From Vicinamibacterales bacterium (GTDB lineage: Bacteria > Acidobacteriota > Vicinamibacteria > Vicinamibacterales > Fen-181), in NCBI GenBank assembly GCA_036504215.1, contig DASXVO010000047.1, positions 1 to 38,353 of the forward strand: a stretch of DNA of 38,353 bases, given 5' to 3'. The notes under the pieces are model-generated. The model did not search any database. It was not told the origin of the DNA and was given only the letters and a program-made list of their open reading frames with translations. The stretch's first letter is position 1; each line of letters opens with the position of its first letter. The translations under genes and the position numbers were made by a program. Below, piece by piece: positions 4,122-38,230 of the stretch.

Positions 4122-4142
4122 GGCTCTCGGCTCTCGGCTCTG
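4122..4142. repeat. Heptamer array, three units of GGCTCTC
   Basis: Three head-to-tail 7-base units, GGCTCTC, GGCTCTC and GGCTCTG, occupy most of the 34-base gap between the atpF stop and the atpH start. It is the smallest member of the window-wide set of intergenic short-period arrays. Confidence 0.75.
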
Positions 4143-4149
4143 GGGCCTG

Positions 4150-4920
4150 CTAGTGTCTCACCTGCGTCACATACCGGTCGATCAGCCGGGTCTGGTCCTC
4201 ATCGGTGATCGTGCGCCTCACGCGCTCGGTGGCGACCGACACCGCGAGTTCGCCGACGCGTTTCTTCAGGTCGCGCTCGGCGATCCGCAGTTGCGTGTCA
4301 ATCTCGCGGCGTGTCTGATCGAGCATCCGCTGGCGCTCGAGGGCCGCCAGTTCGCGGATGCGGACCTCTTCGGCCTTGATGTCGCCGAGGCCGCGTCGTT
4401 TCAGCGCGTCGAGTTCGGCCGGCAGCGCCTTCAGTCTGGCGTCAATCTGCTCGAGTGCCGCGGCGGCTTCGGCCCGCATGTCGGCAGCCTTCTTCAGATC
4501 ACTCCTGATCGTCACGCCCCGGTTCTGCAGATACGTGGCGAAGGGCGATCTGAGCAGATAGATCAGCACGCCGGCGAGAACCGCAAAGTTGAAGAGACGT
4601 GCGATCGGTGCCCAGATCGATTCGGACGTTTCCTCTCCGTGCTCCTTCGCCCCGCGTCCGCCGGCGTGTTCGGCTGAACCGGCGGCCTCTGTGGTCTTGT
4701 GCGGCTCGCCGGCTTGCGCGCCGCGCCCGGCCGGCGGCCCGGCCGTCTCGGGTGCGGGCTGCGCGTGCTCGGCTGCGGGCGCCTGCACAGGAGCCTGCGG
4801 CGCGGCGATCGCGGGCCGGATCGCGACCAACGTCACGAAGAGGCAGACAATCGCCAGCGCGGCGGCCCGATGTGGTGCTCGCGGGGCGGATGAACTTGTG
4901 TGGGTCGGAACGGTGGTCAA
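4150..4920 (-). CDS. atpF: Fo ATP synthase b subunit with signal-like N-terminus and long Ala/Pro-rich linker
   Basis: Peripheral stalk subunit anchored in the membrane. I start it at TTG 4920, five bases after the end of the upstream b' gene, because the frame from there gives a hydrophobic segment (about residues 19-39) in a signal-peptide position; a longer frame upstream only overlaps the b' gene. This gives 256 residues. Residues 40-100 are Ala, Pro, Gly and Glu rich and look disordered. The typical b-subunit membrane helix (IARLFNFAVLAGVLIYLL) lies at about 106-123, followed by a long charged coiled coil to the C-terminus. Classical b subunits are about 160 residues and lack the first 100. 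The operon position between b' and delta fits. The exact start is uncertain. Confidence 0.85.
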   Translation of the reverse strand: MTTVPTHTSSSAPRAPHRAAALAIVCLFVTLVAIRPAIAAPQAPVQAPAAEHAQPAPETAGPPAGRGAQAGEPHKTTEAAGSAEHAGGRGAKEHGEETSESIWAPIARLFNFAVLAGVLIYLLRSPFATYLQNRGVTIRSDLKKAADMRAEAAAALEQIDARLKALPAELDALKRRGLGDIKAEEVRIRELAALERQRMLDQTRREIDTQLRIAERDLKKRVGELAVSVATERVRRTITDEDQTRLIDRYVTQVRH

Positions 4921-11513: not shown

Positions 11514-13058
11514 CTATTTGCCAATGCAGAACTTCGAGAAGATCGCTTCGAGCAGATCCTCGGTGGTCCGCTTCCCCGTCACTTCCTCGAGCGCCTCTCT
11601 CGCCGACAGGAGATCCGACAGAATGATTGTTTCTGTCATTTGCCCCACCTCGTCAGGTGCCAGGTCTCCAATCCGACAGAGGTCGGCCCTTGCGCGCACG
11701 AGCAGGTCAACATGCCTCGCGTTGCTCACCGCCGGGAGACCGCCGCCTTCAGGGAGCGCGCCAGTCTTTCTGGTGATTGACCTAATTAGGCAGTCGATAC
11801 CTTCACCGGTCCTTGCGGACACACAGACGATATCGCGCGCGCCTCGACCCTTGACCTCCGCCTCCCGTCCGTCGACCCCGCTCTGCCCGTCCGCCCGCCG
11901 GCAACCACCCTCGCCACCGCCGCAGCCCTCGCTGACCCCCCAGCCGCCAGCACCATCGGTTGTGCCTCGGCCAGACCCGAAGCTACCCCCACAGCAGTAC
12001 TCTGCCAACTCTGCTCCCGGCTCCCACGCCGCCGGTTCATCGATCTTGTTCACCACGACCAGACCGGGCCTTGACGCCGTGGCCCTGAGCACCCGGCGAT
12101 CCTCGTCACCCAGAGAAGAGGACCCATCCAGCACCACGATTGCGAGATCTGCGCTCTCGCCCGCCAGTTCAGCCCGACGAACGCCCTCCCGCTCGGCCTC
12201 GTCATCGCTGCCTCGCAACCCCGCCGTGTCCGCGAGCGTCACCTTCGCGTCGGCGAGCGTCACGACCTCCGTCAGCACGTCGCGCGTCGTGCCGGGTGTC
12301 GCCATCACGATCGCGCGATCGACGCCGACGAGTCGATTGAACAGCGTTGACTTCCCCACGTTCGACCGCCCGACAATCGCCACCGTCGCGCCTTCGCGAA
12401 TCAGTCGGCCCCGAGCCGCGCCCGCCAGCAATTCGTCGATGCGCGCAACCACGCGCCTGACCGCCTCCGCCACCTCGCCCGGCGCGACAAAGTGGAACTC
12501 CTCCTCCGCAAAATCGATCGACGCCTCGAGGCGGACGGTCAGATCGAACAACTCGCGCTCGATCTCGGCAATCCGCCCAGCCAGCGTTCCCTGCAGTTGA
12601 TCGAACGCCACGCGCGCCTGCGCGGCCGTCGTCGCGGAAACGAGATCCTCCACCGCCTCCGCCCGCGTGAGATCGAGTCGTCCATTGAGAAACGCGCGGA
12701 GAGTGAACTCGCCGGCCTTCGCCAGACGCGCCCCCGCGCGAACCGCCGCGAGGATCAACTCGTCCACGACCACCGGGCTGCCGTGCACGCTCAGTTCGAC
12801 GCAGTCTTCGCCCGAGTACGACGCCGGCGCTGCGAACGCCGTTGCGATGGCCTCGTCGATCGGCCGCGGCGCCGCCCCAGGTCTTTCGGCCACCGCAAGC
12901 CGGACGAGCGTCGCGTGCCGCGGTTCCAGTGTCTGGTGAGTCTCGCACAGAGCGCGCGCGACATCGAATGCACGCGGACCGCTCAGCCGCACGACTGCCA
13001 GACCGCCGCGCCCTCTTGGAGTCGCAAGCGCGACGATCGTGTCGTCCGCGGAATACAT
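11514..13058 (-). CDS. mnmE: tRNA modification GTPase MnmE (TrmE) with Gly-rich G-domain insertion
   Basis: GTPase that works with MnmG on wobble uridine. 514 residues, against about 450-460 for the family. The N-terminal folate-binding domain starts MYSADDTIVALATPRGRGGL. The G domain shows GRSNVGKST (G1), GTTRD (G2), DTAG (G3), NKID at 337-340 (G4) and SARTGEG at 414 (G5). The C-terminus ends CIGK, with the catalytic Cys. Between G4 and G5 there are 73 residues where E. coli has about 20; the extra stretch is Gly-rich with several Cys and looks unstructured. All motifs are intact and the frame is continuous, so the gene is probably functional. Confidence 0.97.
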   Translation of the reverse strand: MYSADDTIVALATPRGRGGLAVVRLSGPRAFDVARALCETHQTLEPRHATLVRLAVAERPGAAPRPIDEAIATAFAAPASYSGEDCVELSVHGSPVVVDELILAAVRAGARLAKAGEFTLRAFLNGRLDLTRAEAVEDLVSATTAAQARVAFDQLQGTLAGRIAEIERELFDLTVRLEASIDFAEEEFHFVAPGEVAEAVRRVVARIDELLAGAARGRLIREGATVAIVGRSNVGKSTLFNRLVGVDRAIVMATPGTTRDVLTEVVTLADAKVTLADTAGLRGSDDEAEREGVRRAELAGESADLAIVVLDGSSSLGDEDRRVLRATASRPGLVVVNKIDEPAAWEPGAELAEYCCGGSFGSGRGTTDGAGGWGVSEGCGGGEGGCRRADGQSGVDGREAEVKGRGARDIVCVSARTGEGIDCLIRSITRKTGALPEGGGLPAVSNARHVDLLVRARADLCRIGDLAPDEVGQMTETIILSDLLSAREALEEVTGKRTTEDLLEAIFSKFCIGK

Positions 13059-16456: not shown

Positions 16457-16558
16457 GCGCACCTTCCACCCGCCATTGCGCACCTTCCGGCGCCCTTGGC
16501 ACTTGGTACCGAGCACCTTCCTGCGCACGAAGCATTCAGCACTCAGCACTCAGCACGT
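16457..16558. repeat. Repeats between rpmH and dnaA: GCGCACCTTCC copies and an AGCACTC heptamer run
   Basis: GCGCACCTTCC occurs at 16457 and 16478, with a near copy (GAGCACCTTCC) at 16511. Then four exact-phase heptamers AGCATTC, AGCACTC, AGCACTC, AGCACGT run from 16531 to 16558. The heptamer is the reverse complement type of the GTGCTGG arrays at 5467 and 35200. No gene is supportable in the 571-base gap 16311-16881. Confidence 0.7.
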
Positions 16559-16762: not shown

Positions 16763-16881
16763 TCGGCCGTTCGCACGGGCTGGTTGATGAAGATCACATG
16801 AGAATTCTCGGGTTCAGCAGGCGAAAGTCCGATTTTCTCGCGGCAAATTGAGGGGTGGCTGGCACCGCCCGCCAAGATCCG

Positions 16882-18246
16882 ATGGACGACACGAACATCT
16901 GGGAGCGCGTCCTTTCCCGTATCGAGACGAAGGTCAATCTGCACACCTTCTACTCGTGGTTCAGGCCGGCCGTCCTGGCCGAAGACCAGGGTGCGACGAT
17001 CGTCGTCAGGGTCCCTAACTCATTGGTAAAGAACTGGATCCTTCGGCACTACACCGGCGTCATCGCCGAGGCCCTTGCCGAGGTTGGGCGTCCCGGCACC
17101 GAAGTCCAGTTGATCGCGGACCTCATCATCGATCCGGCCGACGGCCCGGAACAGCCTCAGCCGTCGTTTCCGGCTGCCGATCCGCCGCCAGCAGAACCCG
17201 CTGAGGCTCAGCAGGCTCCCGTCACATCCCTCAGCGGCCTGAACCCGCGCTACTCGTTCGACACCTTCGTCGTTGGTCCCTCGAACCAGTTTGCAGAGGC
17301 CGCCTGCCGCGCCGTGGCCGAGGCGCCGTCTCGCTCGTACAACCCGCTGTTCATCTACGGCGGCGTGGGGCTGGGGAAAACCCATCTCATGCATGCGATC
17401 GGGCACTACGTGCTCAGTCACCACCGGAACATGCGGCTGGTGTACATCTCGACCGAGCGGTTCATGAACGAGATGATGAACGCGGTCAAGAACGCACGCA
17501 TCTACGAGTTTCGCGAGCGCTACCGGACCGTGGACGTCCTGCTGGTCGACGACATTCAGTTCCTGGCCGGCAAGGAAGGGACGCAGAACGAGTTCTTTCA
17601 CACCTTCAACTCGCTCTTCGATGCGCAGAAGCAGATTGTCGTCAGCAGCGACAGCCCCCCGCGCGAGATTCCCTCTCTCGAGGAACGGCTGCGCTCCCGG
17701 TTCGAATGGGGCTTGATTGCCGACATCCAGCCGCCCGATCTCGAGACGAAGGTCGCAATCCTCCAGAAGAAGGCGGAGGCAGAAGCCTTGCCTCTGCCCG
17801 ATAACGTCGCGCTCTACATCGCAGGCAAGATCAAGTCGAATATCCGCGAACTCGAGGGATCCCTCATTCGACTGATCGCGTACGCCTCGCTCAAAGGGCA
17901 GGAGATCACGCTCGGCCTCGCGCAGGACGTGTTGAAGCACGTCCTGGATCACGACGAGAAGGCCGTCACGATCGAAGTCATCCAGAAGTACATCGCCGAC
18001 TACTACCACCTCAAGCCCTCCGACTTGAAGGCTCGCAACAACGCAAAGTCGGTGGCGCGGCCGCGCCAGATCGCGATGTATCTGTGCAAGTCGCTCACCA
18101 ACTCGTCGCTACCGGAAATCGGCCGGAGCTTTGGCGGGAAGCACCACTCGACCGTCATCCACTCCATCAAGATGGTGGAGAAACTCAAGGACAACGATCG
18201 AGATTTCAACAACCTTCTCCACAGCTTTGTCGAGTCGTTACGGTAG
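16882..18246 (+). CDS. dnaA: Chromosomal replication initiator protein DnaA
   Basis: AAA+ ATPase that binds DnaA boxes and opens the origin. 454 residues from ATG 16882, beginning MDDTNIWERVLSRIETKVNL with the domain I motif FYSWFRP. A Pro/Ala-rich domain II spans about 90-125. GGVGLGKTHLMHAIG (Walker A, near 160) and LLVDDIQFLAGKEGTQNEFF (Walker B, near 221) define domain III. The C-terminal DNA-binding domain carries SLPEIGRSFGGKHHSTVIHS. A GTG at 16855 would add nine residues; the ATG gives the normal domain I start. Flanked on both sides by DnaA-box-like sites. Confidence 0.97.
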   Translation: MDDTNIWERVLSRIETKVNLHTFYSWFRPAVLAEDQGATIVVRVPNSLVKNWILRHYTGVIAEALAEVGRPGTEVQLIADLIIDPADGPEQPQPSFPAADPPPAEPAEAQQAPVTSLSGLNPRYSFDTFVVGPSNQFAEAACRAVAEAPSRSYNPLFIYGGVGLGKTHLMHAIGHYVLSHHRNMRLVYISTERFMNEMMNAVKNARIYEFRERYRTVDVLLVDDIQFLAGKEGTQNEFFHTFNSLFDAQKQIVVSSDSPPREIPSLEERLRSRFEWGLIADIQPPDLETKVAILQKKAEAEALPLPDNVALYIAGKIKSNIRELEGSLIRLIAYASLKGQEITLGLAQDVLKHVLDHDEKAVTIEVIQKYIADYYHLKPSDLKARNNAKSVARPRQIAMYLCKSLTNSSLPEIGRSFGGKHHSTVIHSIKMVEKLKDNDRDFNNLLHSFVESLR

Positions 18247-18450
18247 CAAAATTGACAACTCCCCCGAGATTTCCACAGCGTCCCTCCGGGGTGCCCCGGA
18301 GTCGACTGTGGATGCTTTTCGATCGGGTGGCGGCGGGACTCGGACGCCCACTTCTTCCACAGTTGGCATCCACAGCGCAAATTGTTCAAACGAAAGCACT
18401 AAGGTCCTCAAATAACGGTTTCAACAGTCTCTTGTTTCTTATATAATTTC
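18247..18450. other. Candidate replication origin (oriC) between dnaA and dnaN
   Basis: The 284-base gap holds four TCCACA-core sites: ATTTCCACA at 18269-18277, GCATCCACA inverted at 18307-18315 and direct at 18366-18374, and TCTTCCACA at 18353-18361. An AT-rich stretch (about 18378-18450), unusual for this GC-rich window, follows and could be the unwinding element. None is an exact TTATCCACA. Gene order (rpmH left, dnaN right, divergent transcription) is the standard oriC setting. Confidence 0.55.
18442..18447 (+). promoter_or_regulatory. Candidate -10 element for dnaN
   Basis: TATAAT about 84 bases before the dnaN ATG, inside the AT-rich block. The hexamer 18 bases upstream (GTTTCA) is a weak -35 candidate. 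It may simply be part of the unwinding element. Confidence 0.4.
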
Positions 18451-18530
18451 CTCTTCTGATCTCTGTACTTCAGACAACCGATCAAACCGACCGATCTTCA
18501 ACACCGTTCTCTCACGAGGTCAGCACCGCC

Positions 18531-19640
18531 ATGGAACTTGTTGTGCGCAAGAACGACCTGCTGCGCGAACTGCAACTCTTCCAGGGAATCGTCGAGCGCA
18601 ACAATACGATTCCTGTTCTCGCCAACGTTCTGATGGAGGCTGACGGCGAGGAACTCCGGTTCCTGGCGACCGATCTCCAGGTGGCGTTGCGGAGCCGTTG
18701 TGCAGCCTCTGTGGCGAAAAGTGGGCGGCTCACCCTGCCGGCCAAGAAACTGTTCGAGATCATCCGGGTGCTGCCGGAAACCGACGTGCGGATCGAGCAG
18801 GACAAGTCGGGCGTGAGGGTTGCGGCCGATCGGTTCGACTCGCGCATCCAGACGATGCCGGCGGAGGATTTTCCGTCCTTGCCGAAAGCGACAGGGACTC
18901 CGAGCCTCGTGCTGCCGAGCGTGCTCTTCCGTCAGATGATCGCGCGGACGCAATTTGCGACCACGAGCGATGACACGCGGTATTTCCTGAATGGTGTGCT
19001 GATGGTGGCGAGCGGTTCCGACTTCTCGCTGGTTGCGACCGACGGGCACCGGCTCGCACTGGTGAACGCGAAGCGGGACGGTGCCGCGCCGGCCGAGGAA
19101 GTGCGCGTGATTCTGCCGAAGAAGACCGTCGCCGAACTTGGCCGTCTCCTGCTCGAGGTGGACGGCGATATCCAGTACGAGCGGCAGGAGAACCATCTGT
19201 TCTTCACGGTTGGCGACCGCGTGCTCGTGTCGAGAATGATCGAAGCCCAGTTCCCGGCGTTCGAGCGCGTGGTGCCGAAGGGCAACGACAAGACGGTCGA
19301 GTTCGAGCGCGAGCGCCTCAGCAGCGCGCTCAAACGAGTCGCGCTGTTGTCGCCCGAGCGGTCGCGGGCGGTGAAGTTCGTCATCGAGGAAGGCAAGGTT
19401 GAGGTGTCGTCGAGCAGCCCTGAATTCGGAGAGGCCAAAGAGACGATCCAGGCGGACGAGTACAAGGGCGCGCCCCTGCAGATTGGCTTCAACGGGCAGT
19501 ATGTGCTCCAGTTCCTCGATGTGGTCGACACCGACAAGATCGCGCTCGAACTGAAGGACGAAGTCAGCCAGGCCGTGATGAGACCCATCGGCCAGGCAGG
19601 CTTCGACTACACGTACGTGCTCATGCCGATGCGATTCTAG
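18531..19640 (+). CDS. dnaN: DNA polymerase III beta subunit (sliding clamp)
   Basis: Ring-shaped processivity factor of the replicative polymerase. 369 residues, normal length, beginning MELVVRKNDLLRELQLFQGI. The three-domain clamp pattern is visible: VERNNTIPVLANVLMEA in domain 1, TRYFLNGVLMVASG and LVATDGHRLAL in domain 2, and ALLSPERSRAVKF, IGFNGQYVLQFLDVV and YVLMPMRF in domain 3. GAGG lies 11 bases before the ATG. Follows the putative origin directly. Confidence 0.98.
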   Translation: MELVVRKNDLLRELQLFQGIVERNNTIPVLANVLMEADGEELRFLATDLQVALRSRCAASVAKSGRLTLPAKKLFEIIRVLPETDVRIEQDKSGVRVAADRFDSRIQTMPAEDFPSLPKATGTPSLVLPSVLFRQMIARTQFATTSDDTRYFLNGVLMVASGSDFSLVATDGHRLALVNAKRDGAAPAEEVRVILPKKTVAELGRLLLEVDGDIQYERQENHLFFTVGDRVLVSRMIEAQFPAFERVVPKGNDKTVEFERERLSSALKRVALLSPERSRAVKFVIEEGKVEVSSSSPEFGEAKETIQADEYKGAPLQIGFNGQYVLQFLDVVDTDKIALELKDEVSQAVMRPIGQAGFDYTYVLMPMRF

Positions 19641-22298
<2,658 letters not shown>

Positions 22299-22301
22299 TC
22301 A

Positions 22302-22541
22302 GGTGCTGACGGTGCCACGGGTGCTGGTGGTGCCGAGGGTGCGAGTGCTGAAGGTGCTGTAGGTGCTGCTGGTGCCGTAGGCGCGGCAGGTGCGGCTGGT
22401 GCACGACATGGGCACCACGGCACTAACAGCACCGCACGCTGAGCACCCGTAGCACCGATAGCAGGGCACCGATAGCGCCCGTAGCACCATGAGCACTGGC
22501 ACCTTGAGCACCCGTAGCACCGATAGCACCACCAGCACCCG
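22302..22541. repeat. Paired inverted 9-base arrays between gyrB and gyrA
   Basis: The left arm (22302-22406) is about twelve units of GGTGCNNNN, nearly all nine bases long. The right arm (about 22411-22541) is some fifteen units of GCACCNNNN, the complementary core, mostly nine bases with a few shorter. The transcript could fold as one long hairpin in many registers. The right arm ends four bases before the gyrA ATG and leaves no Shine-Dalgarno sequence there. No gene in the 246-base gap. Confidence 0.85.
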
Positions 22542-22544
22542 ACC

Positions 22545-25001
22545 ATGACCATCGCCGCATCCAAGCTGCCCGTAAATATCGAAGACGAGATGAAGCGCTC
22601 GTACATGGATTACGCCATGAGCGTGATCATCGGGCGAGCGCTTCCCGACGTCCGTGACGGACTGAAGCCCGCTCATCGCCGCGTGCTCTACGGCATGCGG
22701 ACGATGGGCCTGGGCAGCAATCGCGCGTATCGCAAGTGCGCCAAGATCGTCGGCGAGGTGATGGGCAACTTCCATCCGCACGGCGACGCCGCCATCTACG
22801 ACACGCTCGTCCGCCTCGCGCAGGATTTCAACATGCGCGCGCCCCTGGTGGACGGCCAGGGGAACTTCGGATCGATGGACGGCGATCCGGCGGCGGCCAT
22901 GCGCTACACCGAGGCCAGGCTGAAGCCCCTGGCCGAGGAGATGATGGCCGACCTCGAGAAGGAAACGGTCGACTTCGTCCCCAACTACGACGAGACCACC
23001 GAGGAACCGTCCGTTCTTCCGACGCCCTTCCCGAACCTGCTCGTCAACGGGTCGGTCGGCATTGCCGTCGGCATGGCGACCAACGTCCCGCCGCACAACC
23101 TGCGAGAGGTGATCGACGCCGTCATCTGGCTCATCGAGCATCCCGCCGAGGGGCCCGACGCGAAGTTCAAGGCCATGCTCCGGTACGTCCCAGGTCCCGA
23201 CTTCCCGACCGGCGGGCTCATCGTCGGGCGGGCGGGCATCGTGCAGGCGCACCGTACCGGGCGAGGCTCGATCACGATCCGGGCGAGGGCAACGGTCGAG
23301 GAAGCCACCAAGGGCGAGCGCACGTCGATCGTCGTGACCGAGATCCCCTACCAGGTCAACAAGGCGAAGCTCATCGAGAAGATCGCCGAACTGGTGCGCG
23401 ACAAGACGCTCGAAGGCATCTCGGATCTGCGCGACGAGTCCGACCGCGAGGGGCTCCGCATCGTCATCGACCTGAAGCGCGGGGAGGTGGCGGACGTCGT
23501 CCTCAACAACCTCTACAAGCACACGCCGCTTCAGACGACGTTCGGTGTCATCATGCTCGCCATCGTTGGCGGGCGGCCGAAGGTTCTGTCGATGGTCGAG
23601 GTGGCCGAGTACTTCATCGACTTCCGACGGGACGTCGTCCGACGCCGTACCGAATTCGAGCTGCGCAAAGCCCAGGCGAGAGCCCATATCCTGGAAGGCC
23701 TCAAGATCGCGCTCGACCACCTCGACGAGGTGATTGCGTTGATCCGCGCGGCGAAATCGCCCGCCGAGGCACGCGAAGGGCTGATGACGACCTTCGGCCT
23801 GAGCCAGCTGCAGTCACAGGCCATCCTCGACATGCAGCTCCAGCGGCTGACGGGCCTGGAGCGGCAGAAGATCATCGACGAGTTGACCGAGGTTCGCGCG
23901 ATCATCGAGCGACTGCTCGCGATACTCGGCAGCGAAGCGCTGCTGATGCAGATCGTCAAGGACGAGCTGAAGGCCGTCCGCGACCGGTTCGGCAACCCGC
24001 GGCGGACCGAGATCATCGAGGAGGAGGGGGAGTTCCGTATCGAGGACCTGATTGCTGACGAGGACATGGCGATCACGGTCAGCAATACCGGGTACATCAA
24101 GCGGACGGCCGTCTCCAACTACCGGACGCAGCGGCGGGGCGGCCAGGGGCGGAAGGGAATGAGCGTGAGGGAGGAGGACTTCGTCACCCACCTCTTCGTC
24201 GCCTCCACCCACGCCTACATCCTCATCTTCAGCGACAAGGGACGCGTCTACTGGCTGAAGGTCTACGTGATTCCGGACGTCGGGCCGGACGGCAAAGGCA
24301 AAGCCATAGCGAACCTCGTCTCGATGTTGCCCGACGAGAAGATCGCGGCGCTGCTGGCCGTGCGGGAATTCGACGAGGGGAAGTTCGTTGTCATGGGCAC
24401 GCGCCGGGGCGTCGTGAAGAAGACCGAGTTGACCGCGTTCCGGAATCCCCGGGCTGCCGGCATCATCGCGATGGGGGTCGAGGACGAGGACGCCGTCATT
24501 GCCGTGCAAATGAGCGACGGGCAGAGCGAGGTGTTCATCGGCTCGCGCGACGGCATGGCCATCCGGTTCCCCGAGGGCGACGTGCGGCCGACCGGGCGCG
24601 GAACTTACGGCGTCAGAGGCATTTCGCTGCGCGACGATGATGCCGCGGTGGCGATGGAAGTGGTGACCCCAGGGGCCGGGGCGGTCCTGACGGTTTCGGA
24701 GAACGGGTACGGGAAGCGGACGGTCCTCGACGAATATCGCGTGCAGTCAAGGGGCGGTTTGGGTATCATCAACATCCACACGACGGACCGGAACGGCCGA
24801 GTAGTCGGGATTGCGTACGTCCGAGACGAGGATGAGCTCATGCTCATCACTCAACAGGGCAAGGTCCTGCGGATGGTGACGCGAGACATTCGGACGATCG
24901 GACGTGCCACCCAGGGCGTGCGGCTGATTGGGGTGGAAGAGGACGACCGGGTCGTGTCCATCGCTCGACTCGCGGAACGTGAAGCGGATCTCAACGAGTA
25001 A
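22545..25001 (+). CDS. gyrA: DNA gyrase subunit A
   Basis: DNA-cleaving subunit of gyrase. 818 residues. [20 protein letters not shown] precedes [20 protein letters not shown]. The catalytic tyrosine is Y121 in AMRYTEARL. The quinolone-interaction region reads [11 protein letters not shown], with Ala82 where E. coli has Ser83 and Asp86 at the Asp87 position. The GyrA box [10 protein letters not shown] is present in the C-terminal beta-pinwheel, which identifies gyrase rather than topoisomerase IV. No Shine-Dalgarno is visible because the repeat array abuts the start, yet the N-terminus matches the family. Confidence 0.98.
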
Positions 25002-28205: not shown

Positions 28206-30062
28206 TCATTCTACCGTGACACTCTTCGCCAGGTTCCGCGGCTGATCCACGTCGCAGCCGCGACGAACGGCAATGTGGTAGGCGAGGAGTTGCAGCGGGA
28301 CGACCATGGCGACGGGCGCGAACAGCGGCTTGGTCTCCGGGAGACAGATGATCGAGTCGTGCTCGGTGTCGAGGAGGCTCTCGACCAGTTCGTCGCGTCC
28401 GGTCGTCAGCGCGATGACCGAGCCGCCGCGCGCCTTCACCTCCTGGATGTTGCTCAGCATCTTCTCGAACACGTGGTCGCGCGGCGCAATCGCCACCACC
28501 GGCATCTGTTCGTCGATGAGCGCGATCGGACCGTGCTTCATCTCGCCAGCCGGATACCCCTCGGCGTGGATGTAGGAAATCTCCTTCAGCTTCAGCGCGC
28601 CCTCGAGCGCGATCGGGTAGTTGATCCCCCGGCCGAGGAACAGGAAATCGCGGCGGTTGTAATAGCGACGCGCGATCTCGTCCACGAGCGACGACACCCG
28701 CAGCGTCTGATCGATCAGCGTCGGGAGCTGCAGCAGGCCTTCGATCTGCTCACGCGCCTGCTCGGCCGACAGGGTGTGTCGCGCCTGTGCCAGGTGGAGC
28801 GCCAGCAGGTGCAGCGCGACGAGCTGCGACGTGAACGCCTTGGTCGAGGCCACGCCGATCTCCGGCCCCGCGTGCGTGTAGACCGTGCCCTCGCTCTCGC
28901 GCGTCGCCATGCTGCCGACCACATTGCAGATCGCCAGGCTGCGGGCGCCCTTCTGCTTTGCCTCTCGCAGCGCCGCCAGCGTGTCCGCCGTTTCGCCCGA
29001 CTGCGTGATGACCACGGCCAGCGTCTTTCTGCCGACAATCGGATCGCGGTAGCGGTACTCGGAGCCGTAGTCGGTTTCGACCGGCAGCCTCGCAAGGTTC
29101 TCGATCAGATACTTGCCGACCAGGCCGGCGTGCCACGACGTGCCACACGCGATGATCGACACGTTCTCGATGCCCGCGAGATCGGGTTCCGACAGCGTCA
29201 TCTCTTCGAGGAACACGCGGCCGGTGTCCACCGACACGCGCCCGAGGACCGTGTCGCGCACGGCCTGCGGCTGCTCGAAGATCTCCTTCAGCATGAAGTG
29301 CTTGTAACCCGCCTTCTCGGCCTGGATCGGGTCCCACAGCACCCGCTGCGTCCGGCGATCGAGCTTCGTCCCGGCGAAGTTCGTGAACGTCACGCCGCCG
29401 GCCGTCAATACCGCCATCTCCTCGTCCGCCAGGAACACGATGTCGCGCGTGTGCTCCAGGATGGCGGGGATGTCGGATGCGACGAAATACTCGCCGTTGC
29501 CGATGCCGACCACGAGCGGCGGGCCGTTGCGGGCCGCGACGATCTTCTGCGGCTCATCGGCCGAGATCAGGACGAGGGCGAACATGCCGCGCATCTGCGC
29601 GAGGGCGCGCCGCGTCGCGCCCTCGAGACCGCCGTCGCCGGGATGCGCCTTGAGTTCCTGTTCGACCAGGTGCGCCACGATCTCGGTGTCGGTCTCCGTG
29701 ACGAACTTGTGGCCCTGGCCCTGCAGCTGGTGCTTCAGCTCGAGGTAGTTCTCGATGATGCCGTTGTGCACGACCACGATGCGGCCCGTGCAGTCGCGGT
29801 GCGGGTGGGCATTCTCCTCGGTCGGCCGTCCGTGCGTCGCCCACCGGGTGTGCCCGACACCGAACTCGCCGTCGAGCGGCTCGGCGCGGATCACATCCTC
29901 CAGGCGCGAGAGCTTCCCGGCGCTCCGGCGCAGGCTGATGACCCCGTGGCGGACCACCGCCACGCCGGCCGAATCGTAGCCGCGGTACTCGAGCCGCCGC
30001 AGGCCTTCGATGAGAACAGGAACAACGGGCTTCGAACCGATGTAGCCGATGATGCCGCACAT
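28206..30062 (-). CDS. glmS: Glutamine--fructose-6-phosphate aminotransferase (isomerizing)
   Basis: Makes glucosamine-6-phosphate from fructose-6-phosphate and glutamine, the first step to UDP-GlcNAc. 618 residues. N-terminal glutaminase domain starts [20 protein letters not shown], with catalytic Cys2, and contains [18 protein letters not shown]. Two SIS isomerase domains follow, with [38 protein letters not shown] and [20 protein letters not shown]. The C-terminus ends NLAKSVTVE as usual. No Shine-Dalgarno; the coding strand has CCTCCC directly before the ATG. No glmS ribozyme is seen in the 137-base leader, which is occupied by repeats. Encoded just downstream of glmU. Confidence 0.98.
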
Positions 30063-30080
30063 AGGGAGGTTACTCTCTTA

Positions 30081-30242
30081 AAGGATGAAGGAGGAAGGAT
30101 GAAGGAGGAAGGAGGAAGGAGGAAGGAGGAAGCACGAAGGAGGAAGGATGAACACGGAACATCATCAGCCGTCCTGCCTCGGTCCTCATCCTTCCGTCTT
30201 CATCCTTCCGTCTTTGTCCTTCCGCCTTCATCCTTCATCTTC
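30081..30242. repeat. Paired inverted heptamer arrays between glmS and glmU
   Basis: The left arm, 30081-30150, is ten exact-phase heptamers (AAGGATG, AAGGAGG x6, AAGCACG and others). The right arm, 30187-30242, is eight heptamers of the complementary type (CATCCTT, CCGTCTT, TGTCCTT, CCGCCTT). About 36 unrelated bases separate them. The right arm contains the glmU stop codon and its last dozen codons. The arms could pair into a long purine/pyrimidine hairpin. Confidence 0.9.
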
Positions 30243-31606
30243 TTCGTCGCCACCCAACCTTCTTTGTTGACCTGTTTGCCACGGGCGATGCCGAGGGCAC
30301 CCGGCGGGACGTCCTCGGTGATGGTCGATCCGGCGGCGACGTAGGCATCGCGACCGATGCGGACCGGGGCGATGAGCTGGGAGTCGCTGCCGATGAACAC
30401 GCCGTCCTCGATGACGGTCGGATTCTTGCGCACGCCGTCGTAGTTGCACGTGATCGTGCCCGCGCCGATGTTCACCTTCTCGCCGATCGTGGCGTCGCCC
30501 AAGTACGCGAGGTGGCTGGCCTTCGACCCCGCGCCGAGGCGCGTCTTCTTCAGCTCGACGAAGTTGCCGACGCGCGCGCCGGCCCGGATGTCCGAGTCGG
30601 GGCGAACGTGGGCGAACGGTCCAATGCTTACCTTTTCGGCAATTCGCGCCCCGGTCAGCAGGCAGTGGTCGAGCACGGTCACCTCGTCGGCGAGGACCGA
30701 GTCGACGATCCGCACGCCAGAGCTGATGACGCATCGGGCGCCGATGCGCGTCCGCCCCTGCAGGAACACGCCCGGCCGAATAGTCGTGTCCGGGCCAACC
30801 TCGACATCGCGGTCCACGTAGGTCGTGTCGGGATCCTCGAGCGTGACGCCGGCCGCCATCAGCGCCAGGTTCCGCGCCTGCCAGACCTGTCGGCTCATCG
30901 CGGCCAGTTCCGAGCGGTTGTTGATGCCGAGGATTTCTGCCGGATCCGCCGCCACGACGGCCCCGACCTGCCGCCCCTGTGTGCGATAGATACCGATCAG
31001 GTCCGGAAGGTAGTACTCGCGCTGTGCGTTGTCCGCGGCAATCTGGCCGAGGGCCGGGAAGAGCGGCTCGAGGTCGAACGCGTAGATGCCCGAGTTGATT
31101 TCGCGGATCGCGCGCTCGGCAGCGCTCGCGTCCCGATGTTCGACGATGCGCAGGACCGAATCGCCGTCACGGACGACGCGGCCGTAACCGGTTGGGTCCG
31201 GAACGATGGCGGTGACGACCGTGGCGGCGGCGCCCGAGGCCTCGTGCGTCGAGATCAGCGCGTCGAGGGTCTCCCTCCTCAGGAGCGGCACGTCACCCGA
31301 CAGCAGGACCAGCGTGCCGCGGACACCCTCGAGGAGCGGCTTGGCTTGCAGCACCGCGTGGCCAGTCCCGAGCTGCGGCTCCTGCAGAACGAACCGGACG
31401 TCGGCTCGATGGGCCAACGCCTTCTGCACCTGTTCCGCTTCGTGACCGACGACAACCGTCCGGCTGGCGGGGGAGAGCTGGCCCGCCGTGGCGAGCACGT
31501 AGTCGATCATCGGCGCGCCGGCCACCTGGTGAAGCACCTTCGGCCGGGCGGACTTCATGCGGGTGCCCTTTCCCGCAGCCAGGATGAGGACGTGGAGTGG
31601 GGTCAT
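30200..31606 (-). CDS. glmU: Bifunctional GlmU: glucosamine-1-phosphate acetyltransferase / GlcNAc-1-phosphate uridylyltransferase
   Basis: Completes UDP-GlcNAc synthesis for peptidoglycan and lipopolysaccharide. 468 residues. The N-terminal nucleotidyltransferase domain has LILAAGKGTRMKSARPKVLH, LQEPQLGTGHAVLQAKPLL and INSGIYAFD. The C-terminal left-handed beta helix contains GARVGNFVELKKTRLGAGSK, HLAYLGDATIGEKVNIGAGT and TCNYDGVRKNPTVIEDGVFI. The last 12 or so residues (MKDEGGRTKTEG) are encoded by the heptamer array and replace the usual short Lys/Arg tail. Starts 26 bases after the stop of the TPR gene. Confidence 0.97.
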   Translation of the reverse strand: MTPLHVLILAAGKGTRMKSARPKVLHQVAGAPMIDYVLATAGQLSPASRTVVVGHEAEQVQKALAHRADVRFVLQEPQLGTGHAVLQAKPLLEGVRGTLVLLSGDVPLLRRETLDALISTHEASGAAATVVTAIVPDPTGYGRVVRDGDSVLRIVEHRDASAAERAIREINSGIYAFDLEPLFPALGQIAADNAQREYYLPDLIGIYRTQGRQVGAVVAADPAEILGINNRSELAAMSRQVWQARNLALMAAGVTLEDPDTTYVDRDVEVGPDTTIRPGVFLQGRTRIGARCVISSGVRIVDSVLADEVTVLDHCLLTGARIAEKVSIGPFAHVRPDSDIRAGARVGNFVELKKTRLGAGSKASHLAYLGDATIGEKVNIGAGTITCNYDGVRKNPTVIEDGVFIGSDSQLIAPVRIGRDAYVAAGSTITEDVPPGALGIARGKQVNKEGWVATKKMKDEGGRTKTEG

Positions 31607-35199: not shown

Positions 35200-35254
35200 G
35201 CGCTAGCGGCTAAGCGCTAAGTGCTAGTGCTGGGTGCTGGGTGCTGGGTGCGCG
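35200..35254. repeat. Heptamer array (GCGCTAA to GTGCTGG) after the DUF885 gene
   Basis: Units of seven bases follow the stop codon at once: GCGCTAG, CGGCTAA, GCGCTAA, GTGCTA (six bases), GTGCTGG three times, GTGCGCG. The GTGCTGG unit is the same as in the array at the end of selD. Confidence 0.85.
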
Positions 35255-38126: not shown

Positions 38127-38226
38127 CAGGATCCAGGAGTCAGGAGCCGGAATCCAGGCGCCGAAACGCAGAGGCTGTCATCTGGCTTCTCACTCCTGTA
38201 TTCTGACTCCTGACTCCTGACTCGTG
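38127..38226. repeat. Paired inverted heptamer arrays between serS and tRNA-Ser
   Basis: The left arm, 38127-38161, is five exact-phase heptamers (CAGGATC, CAGGAGT, CAGGAGC, CGGAATC, CAGGCGC). The right arm, 38192-38226, is five complementary heptamers (ACTCCTG, TATTCTG, ACTCCTG, ACTCCTG, ACTCGTG). Thirty unrelated bases form the loop. The array ends four bases before the tRNA. Confidence 0.9.
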
Positions 38227-38230
38227 ATGC

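Follow-up and report, generated by a model that had tools for sequence, protein, structure and literature searches.

The facing heptamer arrays between glmU and glmS in the window (the whole 38,353-nt stretch analysed here) represent, with a probability of roughly 75%, one of the copies of an intergenic heptameric simple-sequence repeat peculiar to this species, GAAGGA[T/G], which has expanded at many gene boundaries of its genome and whose hairpin at this junction is a by-product.

The glmU-glmS junction and the GlmU tail

The features of the junction are collected in Table 1. Read in register, the first arm is composed of AAAGGAT GAAGGAG GAAGGAT (GAAGGAG)x4 GAAGCAC GAAGGAG GAAGGAT on the plus strand and the second arm of GAAGGAT GAAGGCG GAAGGAC AAAGACG GAAGGAT GAAGACG GAAGGAT on the minus strand, with TRF limits of 30081-30152 and 30182-30236. 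The first-pass annotation had described ten heptamers facing eight, and the count was borne out by ten units on the plus strand against seven clean ones and a looser one on the minus strand. Its reading of the second arm as carrier of the glmU stop and of the last dozen residues also agrees with the codons: the TGA stop (30202-30200) lies within this arm and the final codons inside the array, AAG GAT GAA GGC GGA AGG ACA AAG ACG GAA GGA TGA, encode MKDEGGRTKTEG. An inverted duplication as source of both arms was ruled out, as the unit variants and their order differ between the arms.

Table 1. Positions of genes, arms and array-encoded glmU end at the junction (window coordinates).
Feature	Position	Strand	Remarks
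glmU, bifunctional UDP-GlcNAc pyrophosphorylase / GlcN-1-P acetyltransferase	30200-31606	-	TIGR01173, 583 bits (cut-off 367)
glmS, glutamine--fructose-6-phosphate transaminase	28206-30062	-	TIGR01135, 849 bits (cut-off 418); next same-strand gene after glmU
First arm, ten GAAGGA[T/G] heptamers	30080-30149	+	G-rich strand antisense to glmS; begins 17 nt from glmS start
Hairpin apex and loop	30150-30187		degenerate units GAGGACC GAGGCAG GACGG (- strand)
Second arm, seven clean heptamers (30188-30236) and a looser partial eighth to 30242	30188-30242	-	sense to glmU
Array-derived glmU end, M KDEGGRTKTEG and TGA stop	30200-30238	-	absent in 4/4 congeners

The source assembly is a draft of 5.92 Mb in 90 contigs, and the closest relatives of its GlmU are found in Acidobacteria MAGs. 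Elsewhere in the window, positions 16855-25001 and their flanks are likely a replication-origin neighbourhood: the translated ORFs were read as dnaA (16855), dnaN (18531), gyrB (19662) and gyrA (22545), rnpA, yidC, mnmE, mnmG, parA/parB and atp genes lie on their left, and the cumulative GC skew has its minimum at about 18-20 kb. Further short period-7 arrays are present at 35227-35251, 16531-16556, 4122-4141 and 38187-38227 (units GTGCTGG, AGCACTC, GGCTCTC and ACTCCTG), and the gyrB-gyrA gap (22301-22529) contains 9-, 18- and 33-nt tandem repeats with units like AGGTGCTGA / GAGCACCCGTAGCACC.

GlmU was aligned with its relatives. In four congeners (G001-G004) GlmU is 72-75% identical, ends in a tail of the type KEGW[AV]xxKKxxxxxEKK[TSE]* and is followed by glmS after 11-60 nt free of any array; the nearest public MAG (L031, GlmU 76%) shows the same tail type as the congeners and no array. 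In the array-bearing genome about 137 nt now separate the two genes, and the array has swapped out about nine final ancestral residues, leaving the protein about three residues longer. As all four same-genus genomes are without the array and carry another tail, the GlmU C-terminus is, judged from this sequence comparison, derived and supplied by the array, and the alignment revealed no relative with the same tail but without an array. That the tail is instead ancestral and resembles the array by accident is scarcely credible: the lysine-rich ancestral tail upstream (GATGAAGAAGG in G003) could have seeded the array, but none of the relatives examined has the GlmU tail of the window, the congeners share another one, and the stop and final codons fit the genome-wide unit in the same way as the ends of other genes.

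The GlmU family models end at about residue 452-459 of 468, so that the core essential sequence has not been invaded. The proposal that arrays can spread into essential coding sequence therefore stands as far as the stop and tail of glmU have been overwritten, but it does not reach beyond the variable tail past the last conserved block; only dispensable protein tails are overwritten by the arrays.

A genome-wide repeat family at gene boundaries

Exact (GAAGGAN)2GAAGGA matches occur 118 times in the source genome versus 8 for the reversed control, and the same search gave 0, 0, 2 and 0 matches in the four congeners, the two being of the GAAGGAA version; 53 of the 60 genomes searched had no GAAGGAN triple-unit match at all. 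Using a unit scanner, 37 array segments were identified in 1.24 Mb of the source genome, sampled in stretches partly picked to include arrays, so that their density is biased while their orientation should not be. A triplet-shuffled copy of the same 1.24 Mb, scanned on one strand, gave no array segment. The array at glmU-glmS is not due to chance.

Arrays commonly comprise 5-14 units (19 at most), and in many of them a period of 14 or 21 is scored as well, at 85-95% matches. Neither isolated two-unit copies outside the called arrays of the 1.24 Mb nor a gradient of unit purity along the arrays (Wilcoxon p = 0.31) were detected, and a second heptamer of the AGNGCT type was not found in the source genome. 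The arrays consist of head-to-tail 7-nt units in several to many copies, with one unit dispersed in the genome and absent or different in near relatives, as is characteristic of intergenic heptameric simple-sequence repeats. REP or MITE elements do not fit, as the arrays have neither a fixed length nor constant flanks and show no shared terminal sequence.

Other repeats are found next to this family. Long arrays with 14- or 21-nt units (e.g. GCCTGTGGCACTCT x 13.9), multiples of seven, occur at L142 ~12497-12539, L135 14761-14955 (C16:94761-94955) and L155 6874-6976 (C59:86874-86976). At L117 19584-19652 (G000:C5:139584-139652) a GAAGGAT array turns into (GAACGCT)n ahead of a GC-rich hairpin, possibly the birth of a new unit. 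After a cox-like gene in G001 and G002 (L184, L185) a ~21-nt repeat (GTCGGGAACTGACGCAGAAG...) takes the place that GAAGGAT has in the source genome; genome-wide it is present in 10 and 17 copies in these two congeners and in none in the source genome. Repeats seem to gather at gene junctions, with units that differ from species to species.

The window locus had been singled out as the clearest case of such arrays. It is real, yet it is one among many comparable ones, with a gene's stop codon being held by the array in 10 of the 33 arrays sampled. A predicted gene start lies inside the array in 6 of these 33, gene calls having been made with a simple hexamer-based caller and array-internal starts thus being predictions. 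In frame, GAA GGA TGA reads E-G-stop, and C-termini in 'EG' were found at arrays for GlmU, MnmA, LpxD, a GltP-like carrier, a histidine kinase and others; HypD also ends in 'EG', but its stop is TAA. The orthologues of these proteins in G001 and G002 have other ends and no GAAGGAT array at the respective junctions. Among 895 genes, eight have the ending GAAGGATGA, and each of them is located at an array, one of these arrays falling below the detector threshold. Besides glmU, eight junctions were found without array in congeners (mnmA, lpxD, gltP-like, histidine kinase, hypD, NtrC-like, cox-like and export-like). At hypD-hypE an ATGA stop-start overlap in the congener corresponds to an array giving both the stop and the start in the source genome, and HypE has the best-supported array-internal start, since its frame opens inside the array and matches the family from residue 18 onwards. 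A single lineage-specific heptamer expansion thereby rewrites the C-termini of several conserved proteins (GlmU, MnmA, LpxD and HypD to 'EG'), and for genome annotation this means that conserved-looking tails and starts beside arrays may be repeat-made.

The arrays are also placed and oriented in a regular way. In the source genome the 5' edge of the array adjoins the stop of a co-oriented gene in 22 of 33 cases, compared to 7.7 +/- 2.4 expected when place and strand are randomised and 13.0 +/- 2.5 when strands are flipped, while plainly counting how often the 5' side is nearer gives 21/33 (p = 0.16). A second Vicinamibacterales MAG (L033, genome G060) carries another heptamer, (CCCACTA)n, immediately before glmS, and its unit TAGTGGG shows 101 exact triple-unit matches in this genome against none for the control. 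For G060 we analysed 66 arrays from 40 stretches and L033, with binomial p-values being computed: 33 lie in sense just past a stop and 15 in antisense just ahead of a start, the 5' side is closer to the ORF in 48 of 56, and all 17 facing pairs not more than 400 nt apart have their G-rich strands pointing inward, the same polarity as in the glmU-glmS pair. In both genomes the G-rich strand is found near a stop in sense or near a start in antisense, and it usually reads outward from the gene into the gap. The glmU-glmS hairpin is the outcome of arrays being present at either edge of a single gap. Many of the TAGTGGG arrays are located within about 350 nt of contig ends (L219, L225, L237, L242, L243, L247); these repeats probably break assemblies and are hence undercounted.

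The hairpin and the origin of the arrays

Folding of the array RNA gave -96 kcal/mol for either strand (z -7.7 for plus and -6.6 for minus), and none of 200 shuffles folded as well, confirming the hairpin that had been read from the letters. The arms do pair in register, as the annotation's term phase-perfect implied, but such pairing is automatic for two facing copies of one repeat. Arms taken from randomly chosen unrelated loci reached -78.9 +/- 12.8 kcal/mol versus -69.1 for the glmU arms in the same frame; since unrelated arms pair as well or better, there is no sign of co-adaptation.

These results bear on the idea that the two arms form a regulatory hairpin under selection, which in the glmU-glmS transcript would control the processing or translation of glmS. 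In E. coli the regulation of glmS involves cleavage by RNase E close to the stop of glmU, a place equivalent to that of the arrays. The strength of the fold (-96 kcal/mol, z -7.7) would suit such a role, as would the independent facing pair with another unit that fills the same gap in a Nitrospirota genome (L058, -87 kcal/mol), the different heptamer just before glmS in L033, and the missing GGGGAGG-like ribosome site ahead of the window glmS, which is present in congeners G001 and G002. We nevertheless regard selection as unlikely: besides pairing no better than arms of unrelated loci, the congeners do without the array, and array-bearing junctions amount to three among the window and 80 glmU loci, which in repeat-rich genomes is weak evidence for enrichment at glmU-glmS. 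No intrinsic terminator, with a T run behind a G+C-rich stem, was found, and a search against Rfam gave 26 matches, all under the gathering score and nearly all to microRNA-precursor models, as a long perfect hairpin would attract; neither the glmS ribozyme nor any other curated family reached that score. The hairpin looks like a by-product of the placement rule of the arrays, although it may have an effect on the glmU-glmS mRNA.

For the expansion itself we propose that arrays would grow in non-coding DNA by slippage or unequal copying, the most likely origin, and would overwrite DNA under weak constraint as far as the gene ends and a little beyond them into the genes. An array growing in sense orientation into a 3' end could be tolerated: with GA behind it, each GAAGGAT unit carries a TGA, and the 7-nt period reaches every frame within three units, so that open frames would soon be closed, whereas the reverse strand of the GAAGGAT repeat is free of stops and would lead to a long added tail. 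Arrays at both edges of the glmU-glmS gap with their G-rich strands pointing in would then result in the long transcript hairpin. The period-14/21 sub-structure fits local block duplication. Slippage alone, however, predicts neither the strict polarity (17/17 facing pairs in G060) nor the absence of isolated two-unit copies, from which the growth looks saltatory rather than gradual, and the self-closing argument fails for GAAGGAG units, which have no stop, as well as for the stop-less Xanthomonas unit GGGAATC, which obeys the same rule. The cause of the polarity is an old question that has become testable because congeners with empty junctions exist.

Polarity would follow from a telomere-like process, in which a templated G-rich unit is added 5'->3' to broken ends in non-coding DNA before these are rejoined, leaving single arrays or facing pairs with inward G-rich strands. 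It would account for the orientation at both gene ends and the 17/17 inward pairs, for the missing two-unit copies and for one dominant unit per genome, and bacterial reverse transcriptases making tandem-repeat DNA do exist, as DRT10 produces 9-nt repeats (PMC12632851). Still, G060 as the strongest case has no RVT_1 match, and the single reverse transcriptase of the source genome reads from its sequence as the group II intron type, making this process very improbable. The more general form, that in each array-rich genome a polar, template-like process adds its own G-rich heptamer 5'->3' outward from retained coding DNA ends, is also quite improbable; if true, polar addition would explain why facing pairs point strictly inward and why gene tails have been overwritten.

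The arrays might also act as RNA-level sites, with tandem AAGGAUG titrating CsrA or marking transcripts, or with AAGGAGG serving as a repeated Shine-Dalgarno sequence. The core motif of CsrA/RsmA is ARGGAUG, which AAGGAUG resembles. CsrA is encoded in the source genome (71.8 bits) and in both other array-bearing genomes tested (G000:C5:5398-5550, G060:C11:150769 and G061:C454:11005) and was not found in congeners G001-G004, which are without a GAAGGA[T/G] array, but this is a tiny sample of three array-bearing genomes against four congeners, and the G060 unit TAGTGGG shows the same placement without any GGA, so that CsrA could not account for it there. Several predicted starts, e.g. that of hypE, lie inside arrays beside AAGGAGG-like units, which speaks for a role of this kind. 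Because placement tracks gene ends in both orientations and not one RNA strand, we consider such a role highly unlikely and retain slippage or unequal copying as the favoured origin.

Comparison with known heptamer repeats

The closest match is found in the intergenic G-rich heptamers GGGAATC of Xanthomonas and GGGGA(C/T)T of Nostoc, for which no function was found (Rehm et al. 2015, PMC4692102). Their G-rich strand is found no more than 50 bp from a gene, either past its stop on the sense strand or ahead of its start on the antisense strand, convergent facing pairs number 70 in Xcc and 75 in Xac but are few in Nostoc, the adjacent genes have random functions and array length varies between relatives (PMC4692102). 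They share with GAAGGA[T/G] the period of 7, one dominant unit per genome, the mostly non-coding location, the random functions of adjacent genes and the overlap with stops, and in Xanthomonas also the convergent facing pairs. In contrast, G-runs in GAAGGA[T/G] are limited to GG, so that the four-tract G-quadruplex argument does not carry over in the same way, its arrays are longer, and the unit itself contains TGA and ATG. Our analysis extends the Xanthomonas/Nostoc rule of placement and polarity to the Vicinamibacterales with two further units.

The TAACTGA direct repeats of marine Beggiatoaceae likewise carry stop codons in one orientation, and their overlap with gene 3' ends is limited by these stops to about three units (MacGregor 2015, PMC4679880), an argument equal to the self-closing idea above. 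Both are scattered heptamers with stops in one orientation and found beside essential genes, but TAACTGA is mainly located just before start codons in 2-6 copies and has almost no facing pairs, whereas GAAGGA[T/G] is longer and mainly found just after stops. The heptanucleotide repeats of the cyanobacterium Calothrix and the long simple sequence repeats of Mrazek et al. 2007, over-represented in bacterial genomes, are compared here as described in the papers citing them (PMC4692102, PMC4679880); according to that description they have other units and belong to other phyla. A proposal of heptamer slippage from the polymerase contact length is cited in the same two papers.

At the same junction, L058 from a Candidatus Manganitrophaceae member (Nitrospirota) has facing GTGAGGA / TCCTCAC units at 4362-4515 that fill the glmU-glmS gap, and the first TGA of this array is the glmU stop. 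Polarity, array-supplied stop and long hairpin are as in the window, while the phylum and the unit differ and the array is more degenerate; GTGAGGA is not abundant in that genome (2 exact triple-unit matches vs 2 for the control). A literature search on heptamers in Acidobacteriota found no description of the GAAGGA[T/G] unit. The arrays thus join the intergenic heptameric simple-sequence repeats already described, adding a new unit, a new phylum and unusually direct evidence that the tails of conserved proteins have been rewritten.
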